Shown here one piece after another: positions 24,625 through 39,710 of a stretch of DNA of 53,733 nt. The stretch is from an uncultured Lachnospiraceae bacterium. Its GTDB lineage: Bacteria > Bacillota > Clostridia > Lachnospirales > Lachnospiraceae. The position numbers were made by a program, and so were the translations under genes. Below the pieces are notes generated by a model. That model was not told where the DNA came from, did not search any database, and was given only the letters and a program-made list of their open reading frames with translations. Position 1 is the first letter of the stretch. Each line of letters begins with the position of its first letter. The stretch lies in contig CANDGI010000021.1 of the NCBI GenBank assembly GCA_947384285.1, positions 1 through 53,733 of the forward strand, written 5' to 3'.

Positions 24625-24739
24625 GTTTTATCTGCTTTCCAGGAAATCTTTTTCTCTGCCTGCGGATTGCTAGTATAATTAAAGTGAATCATACAAGGAA
24701 GGCTGTTGGTACCCTGCAGGATTTGGATTTGCCAAAGAA

Positions 24740-25750
24740 TCATTTGGATTGCCGGTACTGTACCGGTTCTGAGTTTTGGTCCAAAGAACGGAATTCATAT
24801 CCAGCATCTGAAAGCTTCTGCAAGACGGTGGGGAGGGCTGTCAATGTGGCATTCTTCCCAGGGCCGTCATGCATAAGGATGACAGGATTGTCAATGTATC
24901 CAACATTGGAACAGACATTGTCAATGATATTTTCAGTTGTGGTAAGGTTGCTTCCATCTCCTGAGCTTACGTTCCAATCATAATGGGTAAATCCCCGACG
25001 TTCCATTTCTTTGATGATATTGTTTACGATATAGGAGGAACCATTGTTGCTTCCCCCAGGAAAACGGAAGAGACAGGGGGAATAGCCGCCGGTTTCCTCG
25101 TATACCCAATCATATAATTTCTCGTAATCTTCTAAAAAAGCATTCACAGAACGATAAATCTGGTTGTAGTTGTGACTATAAGAATGAAGTGCCAGTGTGT
25201 GTCCCCGCTCTACAATTTCTGATAAATATTCTTCGTATTCCTCATTATTTGCAGCCACCACAAAAAAGGTTGCATGGGCATTGTATTCATCCAATATATC
25301 TAATACTTTTGGGGTTAGGGAAGAAGGCCCGTCGTCAAAGGTCAGATAGACGTATTTCTGTCCAGACTGAACTGGCAGATCATCCTTATCTGCATATAGG
25401 TTAGGGTAAGGGTCATCTTCTGATTTATTTGTAGAGGACCAGTCATCCTCACTGGAATCTTCCCAAGAATCTTCCGTGGAATCTTCATTTCCAAAATCCT
25501 GTATCTGCTCAGATAATTCAGAAATGTAATCTTTTTGTCCTTCGATGTATTTTTCTTTTTCTTCCAGTTGGGCAGCGCTGTCCGCTAACTCTTCATTTAG
25601 CCCAGAGTTGTTTTCCTGTAACTGAGAAGCTTCTATTTCCAGTTTTTGATAACGTCCATTTAAGTCCTGATATTGGAATCCCAGGACCCCACAGACGCAA
25701 AGGGAAATGATAACGCAAACCAGTACAGGAATCCATCGCTTCTTTTTCAT
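24740..25750 (-). CDS. Membrane-anchored polysaccharide deacetylase (NodB domain)
   Basis: Extracytoplasmic deacetylase of carbohydrate esterase family 4, likely acting on peptidoglycan or another amino-sugar polymer. An N-terminal anchor at residues 5-24 is followed by a coiled coil (about 28-90) and an acidic Ser-rich linker (about 90-115). The NodB domain follows: TFDDGPSS (Asp139-Asp140), metal-binding HSYSH (His189, His193), RFPGGSN, and LMHDGPG near the end. All catalytic motifs are intact. ATG 25750 is preferred because AGGAG lies 9 nt upstream; ATG 25756 is 3 nt from it. Length 336 aa. It has its own promoter with an 11-bp-period direct repeat upstream. Confidence 0.9.
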   Translation of the reverse strand: MKKKRWIPVLVCVIISLCVCGVLGFQYQDLNGRYQKLEIEASQLQENNSGLNEELADSAAQLEEKEKYIEGQKDYISELSEQIQDFGNEDSTEDSWEDSSEDDWSSTNKSEDDPYPNLYADKDDLPVQSGQKYVYLTFDDGPSSLTPKVLDILDEYNAHATFFVVAANNEEYEEYLSEIVERGHTLALHSYSHNYNQIYRSVNAFLEDYEKLYDWVYEETGGYSPCLFRFPGGSNNGSSYIVNNIIKEMERRGFTHYDWNVSSGDGSNLTTTENIIDNVCSNVGYIDNPVILMHDGPGKNATLTALPTVLQKLSDAGYEFRSLDQNSEPVQYRQSK

Positions 25751-25787
25751 AATCATTTTCTCCTTTCGTAACTTTTTTCCAAATATC

Positions 25788-25838
25788 AGTATAGCGAAAG
25801 GAAAGAGTTTCAACAAGAGGTTAAGAAAAATTTAAGAA
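25788..25838 (-). promoter_or_regulatory. Promoter and OmpR-type repeat of the deacetylase gene
   Basis: On the minus strand TTGTTG (25811-25816) and TATACT (25788-25793) are 17 bp apart. Just upstream, TTAAGAA on the plus strand occurs exactly at 25821-25827 and 25832-25838 (11-bp spacing), that is TTCTTAA-N4-TTCTTAA reading toward the gene. The spacing suggests control by an OmpR/PhoB-type regulator; which one is unknown. Confidence 0.6.
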
Positions 25839-25882
25839 AAGGCAGCTGGCAGCCTGTGCTAGGCTAGCCCCATTGCTTATCC

Positions 25883-26590
25883 CTATCGTATTTCACCCCA
25901 GTATTTTGTTAACTCCTGCATAAAAGCATTTATTCTTAATCTGCTTAGGAATAATGGTTCTCCTTTTACGATGGCGCATTTATCCTTGATTGCTTCTACA
26001 TGTTCCAGATTAATTAAATATCCATTATTGCCCCGGGAAAAGTGCATATTACTTAAAAGATTTTCCGCATTTTTTAGTGTTCCAGTTGATAAGTAAATTC
26101 CATCTTTCGTATGGTATACCAGATTATGACCTTGACTTTCTATGTAATAAATATTAGATACATCTTCACGTTTGACGCCGCCTTTTACAGAAATCACGAT
26201 ATATTTCCGATTCATTTTCTGTAATCTAGAAATGGCGCGTCTCAATTTTTGGTTGAATGCAAAGTAGGACACTGGCTTTAATATATAATCTAAAGCACCT
26301 ACCTCATATCCTCGGATTGCATACTGGGATATGTTTGTAATAAACATAATTACTACATTAGGGTCAGTTTTGCGGATTTCTTCTGCTGCAGTCATTCCAT
26401 CTACAAATTTCATCTGTATATCCATTAAAATAATATCATACTGCGCTTTATAATTAGTAGCAATGTCCCTGCCATCCTGGTATACCTTAATGTAGAATTC
26501 TTCTTTTTCTTCCTTTTGATAGGTGTCTAAATGCTGCAATAATTTAGAAGCATACTGCGCATCATCTTCTACAATAGCTATTTTTATCAT
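25883..26590 (-). CDS. LytTR-family response regulator (paralogue 1)
   Basis: AgrA/LytR-type transcription factor. Receiver with acidic Glu8-Asp9-Asp10, phospho-acceptor Asp57 in IILMDIQM and the Lys of ILKPVSYF. The LytTR DNA-binding domain (about 135-235) has the typical YIESQGHNLVYHT and FSRGNNGYLINLEHVE segments. It is strongly similar across its length to the regulator at 34362-35075, so the two arose by duplication. ATG 26590 is chosen because the protein then begins MIKIAIVEDD like its paralogue; upstream ATG and TTG codons lack better ribosome sites. It has no kinase gene of its own, lies divergent from the carrier-protein operon and has a strong promoter. Confidence 0.92.
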   Translation of the reverse strand: MIKIAIVEDDAQYASKLLQHLDTYQKEEKEEFYIKVYQDGRDIATNYKAQYDIILMDIQMKFVDGMTAAEEIRKTDPNVVIMFITNISQYAIRGYEVGALDYILKPVSYFAFNQKLRRAISRLQKMNRKYIVISVKGGVKREDVSNIYYIESQGHNLVYHTKDGIYLSTGTLKNAENLLSNMHFSRGNNGYLINLEHVEAIKDKCAIVKGEPLFLSRLRINAFMQELTKYWGEIR

Positions 26591-26681
26591 ATTACTTCTC
26601 ATTTCGCTTTCACTGGAGAAACCTTCCAACTATCTTGGCTGGCTTTTCCAAAATCAATTGAGTGTTTTTACAATTAAATAA

Positions 26682-26710
26682 ATTATAACAAACCCGATTT
26701 GTCTATGCAA
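26682..26710 (-). promoter_or_regulatory. Promoter of the LytTR regulator 1 gene
   Basis: On the minus strand TTGCAT (26705-26710) and TATAAT (26682-26687) are 17 bp apart, with a TG one base before the -10. It is close to consensus and needs no activator, unlike the divergent operon promoter. The 303-bp gap between the two genes is otherwise AT-rich and also holds the LytTR box. Confidence 0.7.
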
Positions 26711-26789
26711 GAAGAAGTAAATTAAAAATTGTGTAATATTTACAAAAAAGCAATTATAAAGATGTCGAATTTGTATATAAGAAAATCAA

Positions 26790-26853
26790 TTTACGAAGAA
26801 AATAGTACAACTTACGTAAAAAAAGGGCATTAAGATACACAAAATGGTAAAAT
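26790..26853 (+). promoter_or_regulatory. LytTR-type box and promoter of the carrier-protein operon
   Basis: Direct repeats TTTACGAAGAA (from 26790) and CTTACGTAAAA (from 26811) are exactly 21 bp apart, two helical turns, the spacing used by AgrA/ComE-type LytTR regulators. An AGTACA lies between them at 26804-26809. An extended -10 (TGGTAAAAT, hexamer 26848-26853) lies 36 bp after the second TTACG; no good -35 is present, so activation is expected. A closely similar 33-bp element occurs before the GH3 gene (36464-36496). Confidence 0.7.
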
Positions 26854-26893
26854 TTTGTAAAAAATTAATGATTTAATGAGAGAGGAGAAACAT

Positions 26894-27142
26894 ATGAGGG
26901 AAAACTTAAGTTTAGACAACATTAAGGAATTAATTGGAGAAGTTATGGAGGATTCTAAAATTGCAGAGCGGATGAGTGATGATGCAGATTTATTTCTTGA
27001 TGTAGGAATGGATTCGCTTACTATGATTAATTTTGTTTTGAGGGTGGAAGAAGAGTTTGATATAGAAATTGATTTTGATGATTTTGATATGGGAAAGCTT
27101 TGTTCATTAAAGGATTTTTTTGAATATCTATGCAATTTATAA
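26894..27142 (+). CDS. Acyl/peptidyl carrier protein of the novel cluster
   Basis: Discrete carrier protein of 82 aa. Ser41 in DVGMDSLTMINFVLRVEEEF is the phosphopantetheine attachment site, and the acidic helix II/III region (VEEEFDIEIDFDDFDM) is typical. It begins at ATG 26894 with AGGAG 8 nt upstream. It differs from the housekeeping fatty-acid carrier, which would sit among fab genes; here it leads an operon with an ATP-grasp ligase and a radical SAM enzyme. That suggests a substrate is loaded and modified while tethered. No phosphopantetheinyl transferase gene is in the window, so the cell's general one must serve. Confidence 0.9.
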   Translation: MRENLSLDNIKELIGEVMEDSKIAERMSDDADLFLDVGMDSLTMINFVLRVEEEFDIEIDFDDFDMGKLCSLKDFFEYLCNL

Positions 27143-27163
27143 GAAAAAGGATGATGATATGGA

Positions 27164-28528
27164 ATGGATAAGCAGGATAAAGCAATGAAAATTATCAGTG
27201 GAACGTTTGATTGCGAGGAATATTGGAGAGGGGAGGATTTAGCAAAACTGCCTTTTGTAAAAGATAATCAGGCTAAGTCTGTCGTAACGGCAATGGATGA
27301 GTTATTGTTTGTATTTGCAGACAGAGTCAGAGGACAGGATATAGTAATTACATATTACCAGATGGATAAAGAACATGTTGGTTATTTGAATGATATTGGC
27401 TTTTGCTTTAGACCAAGGGGGATGATGCACCGGATGGAAGCCTTGGAATCCAAGGAGGGAAAAAATATCTCCCGGTTATTGCTGGAAAGTCCATTGCTTT
27501 TTGATATAAAGCGTGAAAATAGTGCAGAAATGGAGTATTGTCCATTTGCTATTGAAGATAATACCTGGGCGGTATGTGAAAAGTTTGGACTGGATTTTCA
27601 TGGACCGGATTTTCATGTTGTCAGAAAGGTCAATTCGAAGGCATATTCTGCATACATAAATCAGGAGTTAAATCTTTTCCATGATTTTTCAATAGTCAGA
27701 AGTTCGAAGGAACTTCAGGCAAAAGGAGGTGAATATTTGGAAACCTCGGCTTTCCTGATAAAAGACATCTATGGCGTATCTGGAAAAGGGAACCTTCTAG
27801 TTTCATCACCTAAAATTTTGGGTAATATCGTGAGATATCTCAGCCAACAAGAAAGAAAAGGGAAAAGGGTAGAGTTCATTGTTGAACCGTTTCTTGAGAA
27901 GGAGCAAGATTTTTCCTGCCAGTTTTATATTGATTTGCATGGAAATACAGAGATTTTATCAGTTCAGGAGATACGTAATAAAAATTTTGCATACGAAGGT
28001 ACCTATGCTGCCAAGGAAAAGCTGCTGGAGCTTTTGGAGCAGAAAGGATATTTTGAAATTATCCGAAAGACAGCAAAAAAGTTATATGATGATGGATATT
28101 TCGGACATGTTTGTATTGATTCTATGGTATTGAGGAACGGGAAAATTATTCCGGTTGTTGAAATTAATGCGAGACGTTCTATGAGCTTGATGAAATACAG
28201 GGTGGACCAATATTTAGCCAGGTATAGGCTGAATTGCAGTTTTACATATTATTCTCTTTCTTTTCATCATAATGTTGAATTCGGGAAGATATTAGAGAAA
28301 ATGCAAAAGAGCGAACTTCTATATAAACCAGGTAAGGAAGGGGGCATTCTTCCATTAAGTGCAAATTCATTGATGATTAATCAGAAAATCCAACAGAAAG
28401 AAATGGGAGAGAAGTATGTGAAAGGACGGTTTTATGTTGCTGTCGTTTATCAAAATGATAAGCAGCATAAGGAACTAAAGAAGGAATTTACTGAATTTTT
28501 GAAGAAAAATTTATTTTGTATCATATGA
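27164..28528 (+). CDS. ATP-grasp ligase
   Basis: Carboxylate-amine/thiol ligase fold: activates a carboxylate as acyl phosphate and joins it to a nucleophile. Visible parts are the adenine/phosphate-loop region with Lys200 and the glycine-rich IKDIYGVSGKGNLLV (about 199-213), the FIVEPFLE hinge (Glu241), and the metal-binding end VVEINARRSM (Glu333, Asn335). The N-terminal about 130 residues are a substrate domain without a recognised family. Length 454 aa. It is 21 nt after the carrier gene, so charging of the carrier, as ATP-grasp enzymes do in thiotemplated pathways such as closthioamide, is one hypothesis; ligation of an amino acid to a released product is another. Its ribosome site is weak (AAGG 13 nt upstream). 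Confidence 0.8.
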   Translation: MDKQDKAMKIISGTFDCEEYWRGEDLAKLPFVKDNQAKSVVTAMDELLFVFADRVRGQDIVITYYQMDKEHVGYLNDIGFCFRPRGMMHRMEALESKEGKNISRLLLESPLLFDIKRENSAEMEYCPFAIEDNTWAVCEKFGLDFHGPDFHVVRKVNSKAYSAYINQELNLFHDFSIVRSSKELQAKGGEYLETSAFLIKDIYGVSGKGNLLVSSPKILGNIVRYLSQQERKGKRVEFIVEPFLEKEQDFSCQFYIDLHGNTEILSVQEIRNKNFAYEGTYAAKEKLLELLEQKGYFEIIRKTAKKLYDDGYFGHVCIDSMVLRNGKIIPVVEINARRSMSLMKYRVDQYLARYRLNCSFTYYSLSFHHNVEFGKILEKMQKSELLYKPGKEGGILPLSANSLMINQKIQQKEMGEKYVKGRFYVAVVYQNDKQHKELKKEFTEFLKKNLFCII

Positions 28529-28541
28529 GGAGGGGAATGAT

Positions 28542-29708
28542 ATGCAGCCAAAATCTAAGATAGAAATGGATGAAAAGGCTTTGGGCATTTTAAAAAATAC
28601 AATGAGGAGTATTGCAATACCAAAAAGAGAGAGGAAAAAAGATCCCGGATATGCCACAGAACAGCCAGAATGGATTGGATTAAAATTGACAAACAAATGC
28701 AATATGAGATGTAAACATTGTTATGAATGGAATGAAGATGGGTTTCATCATGGGATGGACAAAGAAGAGCAGAATATGGAATTGGACTTTGAATTGCTGA
28801 AAAAGGTGATTGATGAAACAAAAGAATATAAATCCAGGTTGTATCTTTGGGGTGGGGAGCCATTGTGCTATTCTGGATTTGATAAGCTGGCGGATATATT
28901 AGAAAAGGATAAACGGGAAGTTACCATTTGCACAAACGGTTTGTTAATTGAAAAAAAGTTAGACAGTATTCTGAAACTGTCGGACGCCCTGGAATTGTTA
29001 ATTCCAATAGAAGGGTTTGAGAAAGAGCATGATGAAATCAGAGGAAAAGGCAGTTTTCGAAAAACGATGCAAACGATAGAATTTTTAAAAGATTTAAAGT
29101 CGAAGGGGAGTTTCAATGGTAAAATATCTGTGCATACGGTCATTAATAATCAAATGATTGGGAAGCTTTATTCTTTCTTGGAGTTTTTGGAAGAAGAAGG
29201 CATTGATTTTGTAATGTTATGTTACCCGTGGTATATTTCGGATGAAACATCGAAGGAAATGGACAGCTATTTTGCAAAGCATTTTAGCTGGCTTGATGAT
29301 GGCGTCAAGGAAAAGAGCTGGCATTCATTCAAATATAAGATTGATACACAATATATTCCGGCTCTCATTGAAGATATTAAAAATATAAACAGCCGGGTAT
29401 GGAAGATTCGGGTCCGTTATCAGCCAGGGCTTGAGTTTGATGAAATTGAAAATTTTGTTTTAGGAAGTTCCAGTTATAAAATAAAGCAGGAGCATTGTCT
29501 GGCGCTTTCCAATCGTATGGATGTTATTCCAAACGGCAATGTTTCTGCCTGCAAATTTTTCAATGAAATATGCGTAAAAAATCTTAAGGAAGCAAGTGTG
29601 GCGGAAATTTGGCATTCAGAACCATATAGAAGAATACGTGAAACAATTTACCATAATAGTATGCCGATTTGCTCAAAATGCAGCGCCTTATCTTTAAATG
29701 GAGGTTAA
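28542..29708 (+). CDS. Radical SAM enzyme with SPASM-like C-terminus
   Basis: The radical SAM cluster motif CNMRCKHC (Cys53, Cys57, Cys60) binds the [4Fe-4S] cluster and SAM; GGEP at 104-107 is the usual SAM-amine contact. The C-terminal region has five further cysteines (about 319, 337, 344, 377 and 380), with the spacing of a SPASM or twitch auxiliary-cluster domain, as in peptide- and small-molecule-modifying enzymes. Length 388 aa. GGAGGGG precedes the ATG. There is no recognisable precursor-peptide gene beside it and no RRE-like N-terminal domain, so a carrier-bound or free small-molecule substrate is as likely as a ribosomal peptide. Reaction type cannot be deduced. Confidence 0.85.
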   Translation: MQPKSKIEMDEKALGILKNTMRSIAIPKRERKKDPGYATEQPEWIGLKLTNKCNMRCKHCYEWNEDGFHHGMDKEEQNMELDFELLKKVIDETKEYKSRLYLWGGEPLCYSGFDKLADILEKDKREVTICTNGLLIEKKLDSILKLSDALELLIPIEGFEKEHDEIRGKGSFRKTMQTIEFLKDLKSKGSFNGKISVHTVINNQMIGKLYSFLEFLEEEGIDFVMLCYPWYISDETSKEMDSYFAKHFSWLDDGVKEKSWHSFKYKIDTQYIPALIEDIKNINSRVWKIRVRYQPGLEFDEIENFVLGSSSYKIKQEHCLALSNRMDVIPNGNVSACKFFNEICVKNLKEASVAEIWHSEPYRRIRETIYHNSMPICSKCSALSLNGG

Positions 29709-29765
29709 CATAGTGCGGTATCTCATGGCGAAGTAATAAGAATATAGAAGTGTGAAGGGAGAAAA

Positions 29766-30770
29766 ATGGCAAAATTAACGTATGCAGATTATTATTTACC
29801 CAATCATAGAGTGTCTGTGTGGGAATACCTGAATTCACAAGACATAAGCATTCCTAAAATATATACGTCAAAAGAAGAATACAGTAAGGCGTATGTAAAA
29901 CGGACAAAATTGGAATTCTTTTATGAGGAAAAGGAACATGATTTAATAGAAATATTCACAGACATGCTGAACAGGTTATTTGAAATAAAAAAGATTAATC
30001 CAACAGAGATAAGATATGTATTTTATACAAAATCTTATCGCTCTTATTATTCATATAATGGAGATAGAGAATACCATGGAAGGGACATGGGTGGAGGCAG
30101 TGTGAACATCCCTTACTATTTGACGGGAAAATTTGGATTAGAAGAAGCCTGTGTAATTGTTAATGATGGAAAATGCGCCTCTGTTCTTCAGGCATTGGAG
30201 CTTTCAGCTATGTGCTGTGACAAAAAGGGCGGATATGCGCTGATCCTCACCCCATCCTTTTCAAAATCAAATAACAGATACAGGGATACTACCTTGTTTG
30301 GGGATGGCGTGGGTATTATGCTAGTTGGAGATGATAGAAACAGCGGATATGAGATTATTGATTCCATGCTTAAGACAGATGGTATGTTAAGCCGGCAATT
30401 ATATGATAACTATGTTAGGGAATGTCAGGGATATAGGGAAAAGAATAAAAAACCGCTATCGGTGATGAAGTTTGAAGATATATTTGAACGTGAAGTTTTA
30501 AAACGCCATGGGCTTACAAACGATGTGGTCAAAGGGGTGATTACACTGAATATAAAAGTACTGATTGATAGATACAGCAAATTATATCCTGGCAGAGTTT
30601 ATCAAGAAAATGTGCCATATGGGGGACATATCAGCGATGTTGATATTATCAGAAATTTTAAAGATTTCACTTCAAAGGCTGCGGTTGGAAATGGGGAACA
30701 TATACTGTTGATTTCCTGCGGAGCAGATACTACCGGAATGGAATATGGAGGGGTTCTTTTAAAAGGATAA
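29766..30770 (+). CDS. KAS III-like (FabH-related) condensing or acyl-transfer enzyme
   Basis: Thiolase-fold protein resembling 3-oxoacyl-ACP synthase III. The nucleophile appears as Cys137 in NDGKCASVLQALELS, and GDGVGIMLVGDD matches the conserved DGAGA-type turn. By hand alignment the catalytic His of FabH (PHQAN) falls on VITLNIK, with no His, and the Asn of GNTSAAS falls on YGGHISDVD, where it is Gly or His. A normal decarboxylative condensation is therefore doubtful; acyl transfer using the Cys alone, as in other KAS III-like transferases, is possible. Length 334 aa is typical. It presumably works with the cluster's carrier protein. GGGAG precedes the ATG. Confidence 0.78.
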   Translation: MAKLTYADYYLPNHRVSVWEYLNSQDISIPKIYTSKEEYSKAYVKRTKLEFFYEEKEHDLIEIFTDMLNRLFEIKKINPTEIRYVFYTKSYRSYYSYNGDREYHGRDMGGGSVNIPYYLTGKFGLEEACVIVNDGKCASVLQALELSAMCCDKKGGYALILTPSFSKSNNRYRDTTLFGDGVGIMLVGDDRNSGYEIIDSMLKTDGMLSRQLYDNYVRECQGYREKNKKPLSVMKFEDIFEREVLKRHGLTNDVVKGVITLNIKVLIDRYSKLYPGRVYQENVPYGGHISDVDIIRNFKDFTSKAAVGNGEHILLISCGADTTGMEYGGVLLKG

Positions 30771-30802
30771 AAAGAGTAAGAATCAGAAGGGAGGAATCAA
30801 AG

Positions 30803-31912
30803 ATGAGGGAACGAACAGTAACGATATTATGTTCAGGAATGGGGTTAGGAGTCTATGTACCGTCCCTGCTATTGAAATATCAGCTGCAGCAAAGAGGAAT
30901 AAAAACAGAAGTTTTTGTAATAGAAAAATATTTTACCAAGGATAAACTAGCAAAACTTGAAGAAAACAGGAAGGCTTATCATAATAATTTTAAAGTTGCA
31001 GTTATGGGGCATAAGATGGCAAAGGGAGATATTACATCCAACTTAGAATGGAGAAACATAGAGCAGTTGCTGCAGAATTGGGCAGAAGGTGGAAAAAGGG
31101 ATTTTATCATGATGTCGGGGCAGTGGAGTAAAATTCTGGAAAACTATTTAGAAAAAAGCGGTGTAACAAATGTGAGAATAGATGCAGTTCATCTAGACAG
31201 CGGTATTGCTCCATCCTGGAAAAAGTTTGAAAATGATAAATCGTATTTTCATGAGGTTTGGATTTTTGATAATAATGTAAAAGATTTGTCTTGTGCCATT
31301 TGGGTTAATGATGGGAAAGTGATTCCATTTGAGGAACGGGAGAATAGAGTTTTTTTGCATGGCGGAGGCTGGGGAATGGGAACATACCGGGACAAAATCA
31401 ATGAACTTAATCAGAAAAAGATATACCTGGATATTGCGGCTTATGAGGAAGATGAAATTTCGGATAATAAGAGAGTGGGCAACCATTACTATCTTATGGA
31501 TCCAGCATGGGCGCCGTGGAGGGAAGAGAATGATAAGAAGCTAGAGTTTCCGCCGATGTTCGAAGTTTTAGAGACTGGAGAAAGAATTCCTTTATATGCA
31601 AAAGGCCATCCGGCAATTTTTGAAAAATTTGCACAGTGCAAAGGAATTATCAGTAAGCCGGGTGGAGGAACTTTATTGGATTCCCTGTCAGCGGCTACAC
31701 CGGTTGTTTTCCTTGAGCCGGTTGCAAAGCATGAGGAGATGAACGCTTTATTTTGGGAAGAATTGGGTTTTGGCATATCCTTCAAAAAATGGAAAGATTC
31801 GGGGTATTCCATGGAGCTTCTAAAGCAGCTGCATTTAAATCTGGTGGAAAAGAGAAAGCAAACCCCAGACTATTTAGATTTATTTGTTGGAAATTACCAA
31901 CGCCAGATGTAA
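30803..31912 (+). CDS. GT-B-fold glycosyltransferase (UGT/MurG-like)
   Basis: The N-terminus has the Rossmann-like opening TVTILCSGMGLGVYVPSLLL, and the C-terminal donor-binding region has KPGGGTLLDSLSAATPVVFL then EPVAKHEEMNA (about residues 289-320). These match the donor-sugar signature of UDP-glycosyltransferases and MurG. Length 369 aa is that of a small-molecule or lipid glycosyltransferase. Donor and acceptor are unknown. It is embedded between the KAS III-like and APH-like genes, 26-32 nt from each, which points to glycosylation of the cluster product. A membrane-bound GH3 glycosidase downstream shares the operon's regulatory box, suggesting the sugar may be temporary. Confidence 0.75.
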   Translation: MRERTVTILCSGMGLGVYVPSLLLKYQLQQRGIKTEVFVIEKYFTKDKLAKLEENRKAYHNNFKVAVMGHKMAKGDITSNLEWRNIEQLLQNWAEGGKRDFIMMSGQWSKILENYLEKSGVTNVRIDAVHLDSGIAPSWKKFENDKSYFHEVWIFDNNVKDLSCAIWVNDGKVIPFEERENRVFLHGGGWGMGTYRDKINELNQKKIYLDIAAYEEDEISDNKRVGNHYYLMDPAWAPWREENDKKLEFPPMFEVLETGERIPLYAKGHPAIFEKFAQCKGIISKPGGGTLLDSLSAATPVVFLEPVAKHEEMNALFWEELGFGISFKKWKDSGYSMELLKQLHLNLVEKRKQTPDYLDLFVGNYQRQM

Positions 31913-31938
31913 CAGGAAGGTAAGATGGAAAGGGAAAA

Positions 31939-32949
31939 ATGAAAAGCAGGACAAAAAATTTGCTATCTCATGAGGAGATTCAAGGACTCGTTAAAGTGAA
32001 TTTTGGGGAGGAGTATGAGCATAAGATTGGAGAAATTAAGGAATTAAAGGGAGGAATGTTTAATGCAATCTATTTGATTCAAAGAGTGGATGAGAAAAAT
32101 GGAATTGTATTGAAAGTAGGGGTGGCGCCAGGAAGGGATTTACTTACGTATGAGCAGGATATTATGCCCACGGAGGTGGCGTGTTATCAGTTAATAAAAG
32201 AAAAGACGTCAATTCCGATACCGGAAATTTTGAAATATGATTTCAGCAAAAAATATATAGAAAGCAATTACTTTTTTATGGAGGAGCTGAAAGGGGTTCC
32301 ATTGTCCAAGGCGTCCAAATTGATGAGTAAGCAAAGTTTGGACAAAATCAAAGACAAATTGGCGGAATACCTTGTTCAATTACATAAAATTGAGGGAAAC
32401 TACTTTGGCTATTTTACAGATGATAAAAAACATCAATATGATACCTGGAAGAATGCTTTTTTGAGCATGTTTGGCCAATTGCTGGAAGATTGTAAATTCC
32501 ATAAGGTAAATATTCCATATGAAAGAATAGAACAAGCTTTGAACGATAATATCCAATTTTTGGAGGAGATTAGGAAACCTTCCTTGGTGATGTTTGACTG
32601 CCATGAGGGGAATGTGTTTGTCAATAAGAGAAACGGAGAATATGAAATTCAAGGGATTATTGATTTTGAGCGGGCGTTTTGGGGAGATCCGGCCGCTGAT
32701 TTCCCAGCGGCATTTATTATGAGTGACGACATACGGAAAGAAGAAGTTTTTCTTGCTTCTTATTTAGAAAAAAGCGATAAAAAAAAGGAGTATACAAGGG
32801 ATGATGAAAAAAGGTTCCAAATGTACCGGATGTATATTTTAACTGTTATGGCTGGGGAAACCTTCCGATATGGATTTCTGTATGCCAAGCTGCAGAGAGA
32901 GTGGGCCAAAAGTGAAATTTTAAAGTGTTTGGAAATGCTTGAAGAATGA
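31939..32949 (+). CDS. APH-family phosphotransferase
   Basis: Aminoglycoside phosphotransferase/choline kinase-like fold. The ATP-lobe Lys lies in IVLKVGVAPG (about residue 59). The catalytic loop is VMFDCHEGNVFVN (Asp220 base, His222, Asn225), and the metal-binding Asp242 is in GIIDFERAFWGDPAADFP. All expected catalytic residues are there. Length 336 aa is normal. It may phosphorylate the cluster product for self-protection, as antibiotic kinases do, or perform a biosynthetic step; the sequence cannot separate these. It is 13 nt from the exporter gene. Confidence 0.85.
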   Translation: MKSRTKNLLSHEEIQGLVKVNFGEEYEHKIGEIKELKGGMFNAIYLIQRVDEKNGIVLKVGVAPGRDLLTYEQDIMPTEVACYQLIKEKTSIPIPEILKYDFSKKYIESNYFFMEELKGVPLSKASKLMSKQSLDKIKDKLAEYLVQLHKIEGNYFGYFTDDKKHQYDTWKNAFLSMFGQLLEDCKFHKVNIPYERIEQALNDNIQFLEEIRKPSLVMFDCHEGNVFVNKRNGEYEIQGIIDFERAFWGDPAADFPAAFIMSDDIRKEEVFLASYLEKSDKKKEYTRDDEKRFQMYRMYILTVMAGETFRYGFLYAKLQREWAKSEILKCLEMLEE

Positions 32950-32962
32950 GGGATGAAAAGGC

Positions 32963-34303
32963 GTGGAAAATGCAAATCAGAGATTATTGGGGGAAACACC
33001 CATCAGAAAGCTAATATGGAAAATGGCAATTCCTTCCATAATGGGAGTAATGGCTTATAATTTGTATAATATTGTAGATACTTTTTTTATTTCAAAGGGA
33101 GTGGGGGCAAATGCGGTTGGAGGGGTGTCCGTATCATTTCCGTTATTTATTTTTTTGTCTGCGGTTTCTTCGACCTTAGGCAGCGGCGCAGCCTCAGTTA
33201 TTTCCAGAGCCTTGGGACAAAAGGATTATGAAAAGGCAAATAGGGCGGCAGCAAATACGTTTGGGCTATTTTATCTGCTGGCAATTTTGGTTACGGTCTT
33301 TGGTTTAATTTATTTGGATCAGCTATTATATATGATGGGAGTGACAGATGCTTTAATGCCTTATGCGAAAAGATACACGAGAATCATTTTGATAGGGGCA
33401 GTGACAAGTACTGGATTCTCAAATTTGATTCGTGCAGAAGGAAGCAGCAAATATGCCATGTATATTTGGATTATTCCAGTGAGTGTAAATGTCATATTAG
33501 ATCCGATTTTTATTTTCGGACTGCACATGGGCGTGATCGGAGCGGCAGCGGCAACGGTGGTTTCCCAATGCGTTTCTATGGGAATGTTTTTATATTATTT
33601 TTTTATATCTGGAAAAAGCGTATTGAGGATAAGGCCAAGGCACTTTATACCAGATAAAAAGTTGCTGTGCGAGATATTTTTTATAGGACTTCCTTCTTTT
33701 TTGCAGATGGCAGGACATGCCGTTTCTATTATAATTGTCAATCAGTTTTTGAAAAAGTATGGTGGAGACTTATCAATTAACACATATGGTGTGGTAAGTA
33801 AAATTAATACTTTTTTTTCAATCCCTGTTACAGGATTTGTGCAGGGGCTTTCGCCCATTATAGGATATAATAAAGGGGCAGATAAAATTGAAAGAGTCAG
33901 AGAGTCTATCAAGTACTCGTTTTGCATCACTGGCATATATAGTTTTTGGGGATATATTGTGATTATGGCTCTGGCGCCGGAATTGATGTATATTTTTACA
34001 GATGATAATGATATGATTGCTATGGGAACCCATGTTTTAAAAATTGTCAATTTAGGAATCTTATGCAGCGGCTGGCAGTCTGTTCAGTCTGCATATTTCC
34101 AAGCGGTTGGGGAAAAAAAGGCATCTTTGCTGGTAGTGCTGTGCAATCAAATTTTTTGTTTGATACCGATTCTGCTAATTATGTCTGAGGCATATGGATT
34201 GGATGGGGTTTGGTATGCTTTTCCAATTTCAACAACCATTGCTGTAATAATTTCCACTATTGTTCTGATCAAGATTCTAAAAAAAGAGGGAAAGAGAATC
34301 TGA
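32963..34303 (+). CDS. MATE-family multidrug/product exporter
   Basis: Integral membrane antiporter with 12 predicted helices in two homologous halves. MATE features include LIWKMAIPSIMGVMAYNLYN then IVDTFFI at the start, GSGAASVISRALGQKDYEKA in the first half, and VQGLSPIIGYNKGADKIERV in the second. Length 446 aa is standard. The start is GTG 32963; the protein begins MENANQRLLGETPIRKL as in clostridial homologues. As the only transporter gene in the cluster, it is the likely exporter of the product. The following regulator starts 58 nt later with no terminator between. Confidence 0.92.
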   Translation: MENANQRLLGETPIRKLIWKMAIPSIMGVMAYNLYNIVDTFFISKGVGANAVGGVSVSFPLFIFLSAVSSTLGSGAASVISRALGQKDYEKANRAAANTFGLFYLLAILVTVFGLIYLDQLLYMMGVTDALMPYAKRYTRIILIGAVTSTGFSNLIRAEGSSKYAMYIWIIPVSVNVILDPIFIFGLHMGVIGAAAATVVSQCVSMGMFLYYFFISGKSVLRIRPRHFIPDKKLLCEIFFIGLPSFLQMAGHAVSIIIVNQFLKKYGGDLSINTYGVVSKINTFFSIPVTGFVQGLSPIIGYNKGADKIERVRESIKYSFCITGIYSFWGYIVIMALAPELMYIFTDDNDMIAMGTHVLKIVNLGILCSGWQSVQSAYFQAVGEKKASLLVVLCNQIFCLIPILLIMSEAYGLDGVWYAFPISTTIAVIISTIVLIKILKKEGKRI

Positions 34304-34361
34304 TATGGAAAAGGTGCTGATAAAATCATATGTGTTACCAAGAAAAGGATGGTGGGCGAAA

Positions 34362-35075
34362 ATGATTCGAATAGCTATTGTAGAGGATGAAGAAATATAT
34401 GTGAAGGAATTGATGGAATATCTGGAAAAATATCAGAAAGATTATCAGGAAGAATTTGAGATTATCATTTACAGGGACGGAGATGGAATCACCGCTGGTT
34501 ATAAAGCGCAATTCGATATTATTTTAATGGATATCCAAATGGAGTTTATAGATGGCATGACGGCTGCAAAGGAAATACGGGAAATAGATTCTAAAGTGGT
34601 TATCATTTTCATTACAAATATTTCTCAGTATGCGGTTAAGGGTTACGAGGTAGGGGCGTTGGATTATATTTTAAAACCAGTCTCTTATTTTATATTTAGC
34701 CGGAAATTAATGAGGGCAATTGCCAAGGTGCAAAAGCAGGAAAGGAAAGATATTGTTATTCAGACCAAAAAGGGTGTGGTACGTTTAGACATTTCAGATA
34801 TAGAATACATAGAAAGCTTTGATCATAATTTGGTTTTTCATACGGGTGGAAAGGATTATATTTCAAATATGACGATGAAATTTATTGAGAAGGAGTTAGA
34901 GAACTTCTCCTTTTCCCGTGGAAACCATTGCTATTTGATTAATCTTGAGCATGTAGATGGAGTAGAGGATAAATGTGCCGTCATAAAAGGGAAGCGGCTT
35001 CAAATCAGCCGTCCCCGGAGAAATGGATTTATGAAAGATTTGACAAGATACTGGGGGGAGGAGAGACGAGAATGA
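34362..35075 (+). CDS. LytTR-family response regulator (paralogue 2)
   Basis: Same architecture as the regulator at 25883-26590: receiver with Asp57 in IILMDIQMEFIDGMTAA, then LytTR domain with YIESFDHNLVFHT and FSRGNHCYLINLEHVD. Most of the length aligns without gaps, including the Cys-containing KCAVIKG near the end. ATG 34362 gives MIRIAIVEDEE, matching its paralogue; an upstream in-frame ATG (34305) would add 19 unrelated residues. It overlaps the kinase gene by 4 bp. As part of the biosynthetic transcript, it would form a positive feedback loop if it binds the shared box (inference). Confidence 0.92.
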   Translation: MIRIAIVEDEEIYVKELMEYLEKYQKDYQEEFEIIIYRDGDGITAGYKAQFDIILMDIQMEFIDGMTAAKEIREIDSKVVIIFITNISQYAVKGYEVGALDYILKPVSYFIFSRKLMRAIAKVQKQERKDIVIQTKKGVVRLDISDIEYIESFDHNLVFHTGGKDYISNMTMKFIEKELENFSFSRGNHCYLINLEHVDGVEDKCAVIKGKRLQISRPRRNGFMKDLTRYWGEERRE

Positions 35076-36382
35076 AGGATATGTATGGGGTTTTGCCGGA
35101 TATACCTAGGTTTTATACTGCGTTGGCGGAATGGCTGGCGTGTATGCTTTGTATTTTGAAGATGAAAAGAAGAATTAATGGTTGGAAGCTGGTGGCAACG
35201 GCAGCGTGCGTATTGATTGTGCAGTCATCCTTTTTGATTTTGACGGATAATAAAGAAGGGCTTTTGTGGATCTTGTGTATGGCAATAGCAGTAGGGATCA
35301 TGTATCTCTTCATTTTTAGCAGCTGTAAAATGGGGGCGAAGGATGCGGGATATTGCTGTGTACGCGCTTTTGTCCTAGCAGAGTTTATGGCGTCGTTAGA
35401 ATGGGAGGTGGAATGTTTTTTTTATTATGATATGAAATGGAGCTATGCTTGGAACAGTGTGTTGTGGTTAGCGGTTACTTATACCGGAGTTTTCCTGGTT
35501 TGCTGTTTGATAGAGCGAAAACTGTTGAATCAGGAGAAGGATTTTGATATTGAAAATAGAGAGCTTATTTCCTGCGTCATTATAGGAGCGGCGGTATTTT
35601 TAATGAGTAATCTAGGGTACACATCATTAAAAACACCGTTTACAGTTACACTGTATCCAGAAATATTTATCCTTCGGACAATGATTGACCTTGGCGGCAT
35701 TGCGATCTTGTATGCCTATCACCTGCAGAGGATCAATTTGCGTATACGTTATGAATATGAAAGTATGCAGAATATCTTACATCATCAGTATATTCAGTAT
35801 GAACGGTCTCAGGAGGCCATAGATCTTATTAATTATAAATATCATGATTTAAAGCACTATATCCTTATGCTTAAGTTGGAAGAAAATGAACAGAAGAGGG
35901 ATGATTGCCTCAAACAGTTGGAAGAAGAGTTAAAGGGCTATGGAATGCAGTACAAAACCGGGAATCAGGTGTTGGATACACTGCTTACTTCTAAAAATTT
36001 ATATTGCACAAAAAGACAGATTGTTATGACCTGCGTTGTGGATGGATCATTATTTGATTTCATGGATGACATGGATATATGTTCTATATTTGGCAACGCG
36101 CTGGATAATGCCATAGAATGTGAGGAAAAAATACAAGCAGGGAAAAGATTAATTGAAGTGACTGCTTTTTCACAGAGAAAATTCCTGATTATCCGATTTG
36201 AGAATTATTATGAAGGGGAACTGGAATTTCAAAGGGGGCTCCCAATTACGACGAAAAAGGAAACGCAATTCCATGGATACGGTTTGAAAAGCCTTTGTTA
36301 TACCGTTCGGAAGTATGGCGGGGAGGTGGATATCTCCACACAGGAAAACTGGTTCAGCCTAAAAATATTAATTCCAATGTAG
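35072..36382 (+). CDS. AgrC-like GHKL sensor histidine kinase
   Basis: Peptide-sensor-type kinase: six hydrophobic segments in residues about 15-215, then a coiled coil and a GHKL kinase core. The phospho-acceptor motif is KYHDLKHYILM (His258), the N box NALDNAIECEEK, and the G box GYGLKSLCYTVRKYGGEVDI. This layout is shared with AgrC, ComD and related receptors of secreted peptides. Length 436 aa is typical. The ATG overlaps the regulator stop and has GGAGGAG upstream; a longer frame reaching into the regulator gene is an overlap. I find no AgrB- or AgrD-type gene nearby, so the signal may be the cluster product itself or come from elsewhere. Confidence 0.9.
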   Translation: MKDMYGVLPDIPRFYTALAEWLACMLCILKMKRRINGWKLVATAACVLIVQSSFLILTDNKEGLLWILCMAIAVGIMYLFIFSSCKMGAKDAGYCCVRAFVLAEFMASLEWEVECFFYYDMKWSYAWNSVLWLAVTYTGVFLVCCLIERKLLNQEKDFDIENRELISCVIIGAAVFLMSNLGYTSLKTPFTVTLYPEIFILRTMIDLGGIAILYAYHLQRINLRIRYEYESMQNILHHQYIQYERSQEAIDLINYKYHDLKHYILMLKLEENEQKRDDCLKQLEEELKGYGMQYKTGNQVLDTLLTSKNLYCTKRQIVMTCVVDGSLFDFMDDMDICSIFGNALDNAIECEEKIQAGKRLIEVTAFSQRKFLIIRFENYYEGELEFQRGLPITTKKETQFHGYGLKSLCYTVRKYGGEVDISTQENWFSLKILIPM

Positions 36383-36463
36383 CAGAATAGATATGGTATA
36401 AGCTAGGCAAATTACACAAAAAGAGATGATGAAAATTATATATATAGTACAAATAGACTACAA

Positions 36464-36526
36464 ATCATGCAGAAAAAAGTACAGGTTACGGAAAAATCTG
36501 CACAATGGAACGGATACTGATATACT
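36464..36526 (+). promoter_or_regulatory. LytTR-type box and promoter of the GH3 gene
   Basis: The 33-bp element at 36464-36496 matches the box before the carrier-protein operon at 25 of 33 positions, including AGTACA-N2-TTACG-N1-AAAAA. Its two half-sites are again 21 bp apart (TCATG at 36465 and TTACG at 36486). The -10 TATACT (36521-36526) lies 35 bp past the second TTACG, against 36 bp at the other promoter. A consensus -35 is absent. Confidence 0.68.
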
Positions 36527-36569
36527 TTAAAAAGTTCCCGGGAAACAAAAGAAAAGAGGAGGAAAAAAG

Positions 36570-39500
36570 ATGGTTGATTTTTTAGCGAACTTATTGGGAC
36601 CTATTTTTACGAGTTATGGGGTCAGTGAGGCGGATTTGATGTCTTATCTTACACAGCTTATCGGGTACGTGTATGTTCTTCTTGGGGCATTGGCTGTGAT
36701 GGTTATTGTGCTAATCGCTGCAATGAAGGTAAAAAAGGGATTCAAACACATTGTCCGCTGGCAGGCTGTCCTGGCTTTTGTAGCAGTTGTTGCAATAGTG
36801 GTAAATATCATTTGTTATGGCCCAATGTATGGAAATGTTTCAGGGTATTTGAATGCAGCAGATGTAACGTTAAGTGAGGATACGATAGCAAAGAGCAGGG
36901 ACATGGTTCAGCGTATTGGAGAAGAAGGCATGGTTTTGGCAAAGAATGAAAACCTTCTGCCTTTGGCTTCCGATGTGAAGAAGCTTAATGTATTTGGATG
37001 GGGTTCTACTATTCCATTTTTCGGCGGTACGGGTTCGGGAGCTTCAGATGCTTCAACAGCAGTAGGGATTCTTCAGTCTTTACAGAATGCAGGATACGAA
37101 ACAAACCAGGCGTTGACAGATATGTATGTAGAGTATTGTGCAGAACGTCCGTTGTTGTCCATGGGATCACAGGATTGGACGCTTCCAGAACCTACTGTGG
37201 ATTCTTATACAGATGAGATTATGAATGAGGCAAAGGAGTTTTCGGATACTGCGGTAATTGTAATTGGACGTCCCGGCGGTGAGGGCGCAGACCTTCCAGT
37301 TGACATGAATGCTGTTATTAAAGGTACATATAATCCGGCAGAAGAGATTTCGGCAGCGCCGGCCAATTATAATTCTATGAATGCTTCCTATACTAATAAT
37401 GGGGACTATGATGATTTTGAAAAGGGAGAAACCTATCTTGAACTTTCTAAAACAGAAGAAGATATGGTTGAGAAAGTTTGTTCCGAATTTGACAATGTCA
37501 TTGTTGTCATCAATGCAAGCAATGCAATGGAATTGGGATGGGTAGACGAATATAAGCAGATAGGCGCTGTCATTCTGGCACCTCCAGGAGGCGCCTGCGG
37601 ATTTACGGCGTTAGGCGAAATTATCAATGGTTCGGTAAATCCATCAGGAAAGACGGCTGATACTTTTGTGAAAGACTTATTGAAAACACCTTACATTCAT
37701 AATATTGGAAACAATGCCTATACCAATGTGGATGATTTAAAGAAGCAGATTGCAGAAGCGGATTCTTCTGCTGAGGGAAATATTGCTTTTGCAAATTATG
37801 TAGAAGGAATTTATGTTGGATATAAATTCTATGAGACAGCAGCCGAAGAAGGATTGATCAAGTATGACGAGTATGTACAGTACCCATTTGGCTATGGATT
37901 AAGTTATACAACTTTTGAAAAGAAAATTAAGAACTTTAAAGATAATGGGGATTCTGTTTCTTTCGATGTGACAGTGGAAAATACTGGGGATGTAGCCGGT
38001 AAAGATACGGTTGAGATCTATTATACTCCGCCTTACGATAATGGCGGGATTGAAAAAGCTTCGGCTAATCTGGTTCAGTTTGAAAAAACAGAAGAATTGG
38101 AACCAGGGGCGTCACAGGTAGTTTCTTTTGAAATTAATAAGGAAGACATGGCTGCTTATGATTCAGAAGGGGTAAAAATACAAGGCGGCGGCTATATCTT
38201 AGAAGCTGGGGAATATGTGATATCGGTGCGTTCAGATTCCCATACAGTGATTGAGGAAGAGAAGTTTACCGTAAAAGATGATATTGACTATAGTAAAGAA
38301 GGGCGTTCCAGTGATCAGGAAGTTGCTGCCAATCAGTTCCAGGATTACTCCCGGGGAGACTTTGTGCAGTTGTCCAGGGCAGATGGCTTTGCCAACTATG
38401 AGGAAGCATGCGGGGAATTAAAAGAAGAACAATATGTAATGTCTGACACCACCCGGGCAGAGATAGAAGAGGATGCATTTGGAATTTATGATGGAACCTT
38501 GTATAACGATGACGCAGACGAGATGCCAGTGATGGGGGCTGATAATGGCCTGGTGCTCTATGATATGGTAGGACTGGACTATGATGATGCAAAATGGGAG
38601 GAACTGCTGGATCAGATGAGTTTTGAGGACATGTCAACGTTAATTAATCTAGGCGGGTTTCAGACGACGGAAGTGAAATCAGTTGGAAAAGTCGCAACGA
38701 AAGACTGTGACGGACCGGCAGGATTAAGCCACTTTATTACAGGCGCAGTGGGTACAGCGTACTCCTCGGAAGTACTGATGGCGCAAACTTGGAATAAAAA
38801 GCTTATGTATGAGGTCGGCCAGGCGATGGGGCAGGAATATGCAGAGGTAAGCAATTACGGCTGGTATGGCCCGGCAATGAACACCCACCGCTCTGCATTT
38901 ACAGGACGGAATTTTGAATATTATTCAGAAGACGGCGTCCTTGCAGGCTACCTAACTGCAAACAAAATTAATGGCGCAGCGGAGCATGGCGTATATGCAT
39001 ATATCAAGCACTTTGCATTAAACGACCAGGAAATAAACCGATGCTCGTTCCTTATGACTTTCGCTTCTGAGCAGGCCATCAGGGAAATATATTTAAAGCC
39101 CTTTGAACTTGCAGTGAAGGGATTTGAAGGAAAAGCGATGGCAGTAATGTCTTCCTTCAACTTTATTGGTACAGAGCCAAGCTGCGGCAATGAACATTTG
39201 CTGAATGATGTTTTGCGCGGTGAATGGGGATTTGTAGGAATGGTTGAGTCAGATTACGATGGTTCTTATGGTTATATGATTACCGATCATTGTATCAGGA
39301 GTGGGAATGATTTGATGCTGGGATTTAATTCTGCTGAGTCTAATGTCCTGTCAGACAAAAGCGCTACGGCTATCAAAGCTATGCGCCAGGCAAGCAAGAA
39401 TATCCTTTATACGATTGCAAACAGTGGAAATTATGCAGGAGATAAAGATCCTGCAGGCATTATGACGAATATGACAAAAGTCTTTATCATAGTTGATGTA

Positions 39501-39584: not shown

Positions 39585-39635
39585 TGGATATCGCTTTATT
39601 GAAAGAGGATCAAGGCTTTTGTGTGAAAAGGGGAA

Positions 39636-39680
39636 GTTGTGGCGGCGGATGATCTGACAGCCGCCACAACATCCCATTTT
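39636..39680 (+). terminator. Stem-loop terminator-like element after GH3 gene 1
   Basis: A perfect 11-bp stem (39636-39646 with 39660-39670; GTTGTGGCGGC and its complement) has a 13-nt loop and is followed by ATCCCATTTTT. It lies between the two GH3 genes and overlaps a spurious upstream GTG start (39639) for the second gene, arguing for the later start. Confidence 0.65.
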
Positions 39681-39710
39681 TCAGTATTTTATAAAAAGAA
39701 GGTGAGAAGC

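Follow-up and report, generated by a model that had tools for sequence, protein, structure and literature searches.

Organization of the locus

The window analysed here is a 53,733-nucleotide stretch of DNA from an uncultured Lachnospiraceae bacterium (assembly GCA_947384285.1, contig CANDGI010000021.1), and it contains an operon of seven co-directional genes on the forward strand (26894-34303) encoding, in this order, an acyl/peptidyl carrier protein (ACP), an ATP-grasp ligase, a radical SAM protein, a KAS III-fold protein, a GT-B glycosyltransferase (GT), an APH-type kinase and a MATE-family transporter. With a probability that we put at about 0.6, this operon belongs to a widespread and apparently undescribed family of carrier-protein-based pathways that work independently of non-ribosomal peptide synthetases (NRPS) and make a small glycosylated and acylated molecule. 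All the open reading frames were recovered at the place and on the strand given in an original prediction made from the sequence alone; the genes are as tightly packed as it had stated (13-57 nt), with measured intergenic gaps of 21, 13, 57, 32, 26 and 13 nt, and the active sites that it named, namely Ser41 of the carrier, the radical SAM motif, the ATP-grasp motifs and the APH catalytic residues, are intact. The A/T-rich character that it noticed is also borne out, the G+C content being 0.369 over 26630-36382 versus 0.471 in the rest of the window (everything outside about 24741-36570). Pfam clearly recognizes the ACP, radical SAM, APH and MATE proteins, as well as the LytTR and GHKL proteins of the flanking regulatory genes; the ATP-grasp and KAS-like proteins stay under its curated thresholds, and nothing in Pfam matches the GT. 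The general MATE model is the sole one over its cut-off among the NCBIfam matches listed. Neither the list of open reading frames nor the Pfam scan revealed a polyketide synthase (PKS), NRPS or precursor-peptide gene in the operon. A block comprising the operon and its flanks (24731-39683) aligns with Lachnospiraceae bacterium 3-1 at 92.6% identity over 14,969 bases, with the same gene order, and hence the arrangement is more than chance and is not an assembly accident.

Enzymes of the operon

The first gene (26894-27142) encodes an 82-residue free-standing ACP (PP-binding, 42.3 bits, scanned from 26876) with the phosphopantetheine serine, Ser41, in a GMDSL motif; the start at 26894, with GAGAGGAGA upstream, is preferable to the longer ATG at 26876. 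A match to the phosphopantetheinyl transferase (PPTase) family is present in the same genome. The second gene (27164-28528) encodes a 454-residue ATP-grasp ligase predicted to charge the carrier. It displays the expected motifs of the superfamily (K200, GVSGKGN at 204-210, D319 and EINAR at 333-337), and in a 24-member alignment K200, GVSG (204-207), D319, E333-I334-N335 and R337 are invariant. Its profile matches the ATP-grasp peptide ligase 8ynd (E 8e-9), and a search of the PDB with the single sequence retrieved only a pyruvate carboxylase domain. In many loci an ACP with the equivalent of Ser41 adjoins the ATP-grasp gene. In a locus of Chamaesiphon (L057) without an ATP-grasp gene, the radical SAM gene and the ACP have an AMP-binding enzyme (296 bits) between them, and the GT is followed by a synthetase of condensation, adenylation, peptidyl carrier and thioesterase domains (C-A-PCP-TE). 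As the AMP-binding enzyme is swapped in beside the ACP in this locus, we favor a carrier-loading role for the ATP-grasp enzyme. Published work, cited here and below by PMC number and for the sections available to us, offers precedents: in closthioamide biosynthesis the ATP-grasp enzyme CtaD is predicted to load the carrier CtaE (PMC6772006), and the butirosin pathway uses the acylated carrier BtrI (PMC7857480).

The third gene (28542-29708) encodes a 388-residue radical SAM protein (Radical_SAM, 78 bits) with the motif C53-C57-C60 and 11 cysteines overall. In a 27-member alignment C319, C337, C377 and C380, all after the motif, are invariant, and C130 in the N-terminal radical SAM part is nearly so. 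The original prediction had called its C-terminal domain SPASM, and the Pfam SPASM model still scores over its cut-off (48 bits); however, with only four invariant C-terminal cysteines it is a half-size, BtrN-type twitch domain and not a full two-cluster SPASM. The twitch domain profile matches the solved BtrN structures 4m7s and 4m7t at 42-44 bits, and the best overall structure matches of the radical SAM profile are SkfB and another radical SAM protein. Among the best 25 of 78 NCBIfam matches none reaches its cut-off, the top one scoring 91.7 bits where 380 are required. The twitch enzyme BtrN catalyzes the two-electron oxidation of 2-deoxy-scyllo-inosamine and holds its auxiliary cluster with four cysteines (PMC9012708). 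Given the match of the twitch domain to BtrN, two-electron oxidation is by analogy our leading guess for the chemistry of this protein, and a better one than the formation of unusual bonds by SPASM chemistry that had originally been envisaged.

The fourth gene (29766-30770) encodes a 334-residue protein with the KAS III fold, as indicated both by profile (FabH-like) and by structure match; a PDB search with the single sequence returned just one FabH. The condensing enzymes of the FabH type use a Cys-His-Asn triad. In an alignment with Aquifex FabH the cysteine is kept (C137), the His position of the PHQAN motif is L or Q throughout the family (L261 here), and the Asn position of the GN motif is occupied by H288, with an invariant D293 at His+5. 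Thus, the FabH triad is absent, its His and Asn being replaced, and C137, H288 and D293 are invariant in nine KAS-like members. A triad of this kind, Cys113-His296-Asp301, is found in ChlB3, and the related CerJ transfers malonyl to a sugar hydroxyl and is inactive as the H295N mutant (PMC9573744). H288 aligns with residue 295 of CerJ in two profile searches, singly weak (E 0.055 and 1.8), when the equal-length stretch is taken as gap-free. Hence, the designation KAS III-like stands as to fold and profile, and gives way as to function: from C137, H288 and D293 the protein looks like an acyltransferase rather than a condensing enzyme, and we predict that it is carrier-dependent and possibly of the CerJ/ChlB3 type. 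A 30%-identical KAS-like relative occurs in Cellulosilyticum ruminicola (G148; L003, 9744-10709) in a different cluster without the core genes defined below, where its neighbors look by eye like an electron-transfer flavoprotein, an acyl-CoA dehydrogenase and an AMP-ligase.

The GT (30803-31912) bears the motifs HGGGWGMGTY and KPGGGT and was aligned with its family (36 members). It has no Pfam match at E 0.1 and was recognized through its AlphaFold2 model (pLDDT 91.7), for which all 50 listed Foldseek matches are glycosyltransferases, including CalG3, MGD1 and MurG, with a probability of 1.00 but TM-scores of about 0.4-0.6. The C-terminal part with KPGGGT weakly matches a diglucosyl-diacylglycerol synthase group in NCBIfam, far below cut-off, and the best PDB profile match is 9wde.

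The APH-type kinase (31939-32949; 336 residues, APH 63.3 bits) retains D220/N225 and D242, which from general knowledge of the fold we take to be its catalytic residues. Homologues are found in all five actinomycete loci of the GT-bearing set described below (103-129 bits) and, at 103 bits each, in two loci on Streptomyces plasmids; in contrast, only one of 75 other genomes of the order has an APH match at 1e-10 (G062), with no core around it. Given these homologues in the actinomycete loci and the near absence of matches from the other genomes of the order, this kinase is probably a part of the pathway in two or more distant lineages. Its role may be self-resistance or tailoring. The seventh gene (32963-34303), with a GTG start, encodes the 446-residue MATE-family transporter (MatE 156.9 bits; TIGR00797 over cut-off).

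A conserved four-gene core

To define the extent of conservation, an alignment of the GT was used as a probe on a contig collection, which yielded 46 GT-bearing loci; as this probe worked through two short peptide patterns it missed some loci, and three of them (L083, L087 and L088) were found through other searches. The ACP, the ATP-grasp enzyme, the GT and the radical SAM protein occur together in 34 of the 46 loci and form what we term the four-gene core. By profile scoring, the core radical SAM protein (at least 480 bits) is present in 38 of them; 34 of these 38 also contain a core-type ATP-grasp protein of at least 220 bits, and every one of the 34 has an ACP. The eight loci without the core radical SAM protein comprise six with a distant ATP-grasp protein (170-188 bits) that are of the BtrK type by their gene maps (L043, L046, L050, L060, L069 and L075), a 3.6-kb fragment (L053) and a weak match (L080). 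The four without the 220-bit ATP-grasp protein are L057, L067 (174 bits), L078 and L068, a 3.0-kb fragment that also has no ACP. These counts contain two duplicate pairs (L033 = L049 and L041 = L089). The reverse approach gave a congruent picture. A search starting from the radical SAM protein at 1e-50 was positive in 3 of 392 genomes of the order and 4 of 398 of the phylum, our genome included in each, and all five other genomes so found (G148, G184, G781, G819 and G1019) hold the ACP, ATP-grasp and GT genes in the same stretch; G148 and G1019 are common to this set and the GT-bearing set. An additional genome, G401, was picked by its ATP-grasp protein and lies outside this count; its ACP/ATP-grasp pair and its radical SAM gene sit at two contig ends. 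Members of the ATP-grasp family were found in 12 of 341 genomes of the class and the KAS-like protein in 2 of 295 of the order, again with our genome included.

Loci with all four core genes are distributed across Bacillota, Actinomycetota, Bacteroidota, Chlorobiota, Fibrobacterota and Candidatus Margulisbacteria, phyla that were read from record titles, with the lineage looked up for two families and otherwise taken from general knowledge; several loci are metagenome bins, and single assignments could be wrong. The carriers include Lachnospiraceae, Clostridium, Paenibacillus, actinomycetes and several metagenome bins, and loci from Chamaesiphon and Lysobacter have the GT, radical SAM protein and ACP with no ATP-grasp protein detected. 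The genes that accompany the core are more variable: among the 38 loci with the core radical SAM protein we counted Gfo/Idh proteins in 27, ABC-2 permease homologues in 17, KAS proteins in 8, APH kinases in 6 and a MATE homologue in 1. Of the 46 GT-bearing loci, that of Lachnospiraceae bacterium 3-1 alone showed the full set including KAS, APH and MATE, and the radical SAM-KAS-GT part recurs in the 3.0-kb Clostridiales fragment (L068). Hence, the possibility raised at the outset that the genes might not be conserved together is answered differently for the two groups: the core stays linked, and the seven genes do not behave as one unit, the KAS, APH and MATE genes being accessory to it.

In eleven loci (L039, L040, L041, L044, L045, L049, L055, L056, L058, L073 and L077) the core radical SAM protein has a divergent paralogue nearby that scores 160-199 bits. 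We considered whether the cluster is carried by mobile elements. Phage carriage was rejected, the GT having no match in the phage collection, as was common plasmid cargo: the KAS protein has no plasmid match, and only two plasmids among 72,556 records, each a large one from Streptomyces, carry the GT.

Apparently exchangeable modules for loading and transfer

In all five actinomycete loci among the 46 a condensation domain follows the GT (recognized by Pfam in L065, whose domain the other four match at 203-455 bits), and the same order is seen in a Streptomyces locus (L091). BtrH-like proteins occur in L083 (302 bits) and L087 (335 bits), though both are members of the scoring profile; the Pfam BtrH_N model scores over its cut-off for L087 and under it for L083. 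BtrH is an ACP:aminoglycoside acyltransferase (PMC10318531). When weak matches are counted, a candidate for acyl transfer is present in 30 of the 38 loci, namely a KAS protein in 8, a condensation domain in 7 (in two of them, L055 and L057, inside an NRPS), a BtrH-like protein in 7, some of which possibly stem from a neighboring BtrK-type cluster, and a protein of the family F12 in 8. That the loading and transfer modules swap in this manner between loci is the best evidence for both the loading and the transfer roles.

The same GT also occurs in a second type of cluster with no radical SAM match (L046, L069, L075, L043, L050 and L060, from Ruminiclostridium, Cohnella and Gorillibacterium). 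These clusters encode a BtrK-like decarboxylase, a BtrH_N-type protein, a PreATP-grasp/PGM1_C ligase, an NTP_transf_5 protein and an AMP-ligase-like protein, as judged by Pfam on representatives and otherwise by the gene maps. Four Paenibacillus loci (L048, L052, L054 and L059) combine a core like that of the window with a BtrK/BtrJ-type set in one stretch, so that both pathways may contribute to a single product there.

Regulatory genes

Upstream of the operon and divergent from it is a gene for a LytTR response regulator (25883-26629, reverse strand; Response_reg and LytTR in Pfam), and the A/T-rich intergenic region between the two (26630-26893, forward strand) is, from its sequence, a probable promoter and regulator-binding region. 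Ahead of the ACP gene it contains a direct repeat, TTTACGAAG (26790-26798) and CTTACGTAA (26811-26819), with a 12-nt spacer, both copies of which are identical in Lachnospiraceae bacterium 3-1 (L035). This pair was spotted by eye and was not reported as a family by automated repeat finding; by the spacing rule of such sites it looks like a putative LytTR-type binding site. Downstream of the MATE gene are a second LytTR response regulator (34305-35075, forward strand, recognized by Pfam), 1 nt away from it or, if it begins at 34362 as is likelier, 58 nt away, and a GHKL-type sensor histidine kinase (35072-36382, forward strand; HATPase_c_5, 98.9 bits), whose frame is open from 34973 and whose best start is 35072, with GGAGG. 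The operon probably extends through these two genes to 36382. The two LytTR regulators are paralogous and flank the seven genes in opposite directions, and the upstream gene is 67% identical in DNA sequence to the second regulator's copy in L035. This arrangement points to either a duplication at this site or a promoter region that receives two inputs.

Proposed pathway and alternative explanations

The gene identities, the intact motifs, the linkage of the core and the co-evolution of its enzymes, all of them read from sequence, form the basis of the pathway that we propose. A PPTase would arm Ser41 of the ACP, on which the ATP-grasp enzyme, using ATP, would load an amino or hydroxy acid. The GT would transfer a sugar supplied by a nucleotide-sugar. 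A two-electron oxidation like that of BtrN would fall to the twitch radical SAM protein, with the sugar or cyclitol part as its most likely target. In relatives of the operon the Gfo/Idh oxidoreductase could then re-reduce the ketone and so invert a center; on such an epimerization by a radical SAM protein and a reductase a literature search for HygY and SpcY gave nothing usable. The KAS III-fold enzyme would accept the acyl group from the carrier on Cys137 and hand it to the glycoside at a hydroxyl or an amine, the APH kinase would phosphorylate the product or an intermediate for self-protection or tailoring, and the MATE protein would export the product. The LytTR/GHKL system would turn the operon on.

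Several points weigh against this proposal. The Pfam matches of the ATP-grasp enzyme are weak and below cut-off. The KAS-like model has a moderate confidence (pLDDT 76), its sequence matches to CerJ and ChlB3 are weak (E 0.0044 to 1.8) with FabH proteins scoring better, and by the coordinates that place H288 on CerJ 295, D293 falls on CerJ 300, one off the D301 of the paper, though it fits ChlB3. Moreover, KAS is present in only 8 of the 38 loci, 8 others have no candidate for acyl transfer in the examined stretch, the BtrH-like matches of the seven loci are weak (33-45 bits), and the F12 family, found at 40-509 bits, is linked to BtrH with a probability of only 50%. The window itself has no Gfo/Idh protein of the kind found in 27 of the 38. 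The core enzymes co-evolve as judged by their tree distances, which for the GT, radical SAM and ATP-grasp proteins correlate pairwise (r 0.79-0.86 over 34 loci, with none of 999 permutations as high); this correlation, however, does not separate co-inheritance from shared host ancestry. Finally, the substrates, the product and the order of the loading, glycosylation-oxidation and transfer steps are all inferred.

Three other explanations were weighed. As the best sequence and fold matches of the KAS III-like enzyme are FabH condensing enzymes, and its Cys137 is invariant, it might truly condense, building a short carbon chain on the ACP in the manner of fatty-acid or polyketide synthesis that is then glycosylated and phosphorylated. 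We consider this unlikely, given that L or Q stands in place of the FabH His and His288 in place of its Asn, followed by an Asp at +5 as in ChlB3, and that most of the loci without KAS keep the remaining core genes. A comparably improbable alternative is a Dlt-like role of the operon in decorating a glycolipid or polymer of the cell surface, with the ACP and ATP-grasp enzyme activating an amino acid, the GT extending a lipid-linked sugar and the transporter acting as a flippase. The MOP superfamily, of which MATE proteins are members, includes flippases, the ACP matches DltC weakly, and the resemblances of the GT to diglucosyl-diacylglycerol synthases (its best NCBIfam matches), to 9wde and, in fold, to MGD1 and MurG point in the same direction; on the other hand, the operon shows no recognizable enzyme for lipid-linked sugars, MBOAT or membrane acyltransferase, the candidates for acyl transfer in the relatives are soluble and their exporters of the ABC or MFS type, and the sparse, patchy occurrence of the family (3 of 392 genomes of the order, including our own) is unlike that of a general surface-polymer pathway.

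Clusters for ribosomally synthesized and post-translationally modified peptides (RiPPs) often hold ATP-grasp ligases and radical SAM proteins with C-terminal Fe-S domains, and peptide maturases are among the sub-threshold NCBIfam matches, which could fit a radical-SAM peptide pathway with an overlooked small precursor. Nevertheless, gaps of at most 57 nt leave no room for a precursor between the seven genes (small open reading frames outside the operon were not searched systematically), an ACP with Ser41 stands beside the ATP-grasp gene in many loci, none of the 25 listed NCBIfam models reaches its cut-off, and the domain is a twitch and not a full SPASM; a RiPP origin is therefore very improbable. 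The NRPS-independent thiotemplated pathway with glycosylation that was originally envisaged is supported, with no PKS, NRPS or precursor-peptide gene seen in the operon.

A broader claim, which we advance tentatively and at somewhat less than even odds, is that the family constitutes an undescribed class of pathways that is neither NRPS, PKS nor RiPP, in which a fixed ACP/ATP-grasp/GT-B/twitch-radical-SAM core, present in at least six phyla, combines interchangeable charging modules (ATP-grasp or AMP-ligase) and acyl-transfer modules (KAS-fold, condensation domain or BtrH-like) around a constant radical-modified glycosyl unit. If so, natural-product chemists would have at hand a small, defined genetic core without a known product, whose exchangeable loading and transfer modules make its logic directly testable in vitro. 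The APH kinase and the exporter suggest a bioactive product. Routine annotation may overlook the set because the GT has no Pfam match and two of the enzymes are "hypothetical protein" in a RefSeq plasmid record.

Comparison with known systems

The plasmid record in question is the L091 locus, which lies on a linear plasmid of 451,593 bp of Streptomyces sp. BB1-1-1; it is the GT and the ATP-grasp enzyme that bear this label. Like the window, this locus has the radical SAM, ACP, ATP-grasp, APH and GT genes in one run; unlike it, L091 adds a Gfo/Idh protein, a free-standing condensation domain and an MFS exporter, and has no KAS or MATE match. Genes for dTDP-sugars and a second ACP gene are found nearby. 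In the Pbo cluster of Pseudomonas syringae, compared by its available description only, a radical SAM gene likewise adjoins an ATP-grasp gene; however, the former resembles lysine 2,3-aminomutase and the latter an L-amino acid ligase, and no GT or KAS-like gene is evident there. With CerJ and ChlB3 the KAS III-like protein shares the fold, the His at the position of the FabH Asn and, as in ChlB3, the Asp at His+5, but the similarity is very low (E 0.0044 for ChlB3; 13-15% identity in the listed structure matches), and those two enzymes act in polyketide tailoring.

In agreement with the original statement that no described pathway with this exact gene set is known, we found none among the papers listed in full-text searches, which lay largely outside the subscription journals, so that absence from print is not proven; the available sections of PMC11405602, PMC2922099, PMC8473136, PMC4431377, PMC8303946, PMC10318531 and PMC6772006 do not describe the core. 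Closthioamide had been offered as a model. Its pathway also performs thiotemplated chemistry on discrete carrier proteins, with CtaD and CtaE as the ATP-grasp/carrier pair (PMC6772006), and this logic holds for the operon. In contrast, no adenine nucleotide alpha-hydrolase, the thioamide enzyme, was recognized in the operon, and its GT, radical SAM, APH and KAS-like proteins have no part in the cta pathway as far as the available text describes it. Butirosin shares more parts with the operon.

As in the window, the butirosin cluster has a discrete ACP next to an ATP-grasp enzyme, a twitch radical SAM protein and a glycosyltransferase. BtrK-like decarboxylases, BtrH_N proteins and PreATP-grasp/PGM1_C ligases appear in some relatives of the operon. 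The ATP-grasp-type member of the butirosin system is BtrJ (PMC4431377). The operon differs in that it has neither BtrK, a pyridoxal-phosphate-dependent decarboxylase, nor BtrH, in place of which stands the KAS-fold protein, and its ATP-grasp enzyme has no PreATP-grasp or PGM1_C match. The clusters for 2-deoxystreptamine encode a 2-deoxy-scyllo-inosose synthase of the BtrC type, with the DHQ_synthase fold. No inosose synthase was found among the ten Pfam-scanned operon and regulator proteins, and the single PF01761 (DHQ_synthase) match in our genome (83% complete) is on another contig and presumably AroB. Consequently, we rejected a 2-deoxystreptamine/butirosin cluster, although a twitch radical SAM protein like BtrN is present. 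The operon is thus butirosin-like in logic, yet outside the butirosin group by gene content, and apparently represents a real, conserved family of thiotemplated glycoside pathways with an undescribed product.

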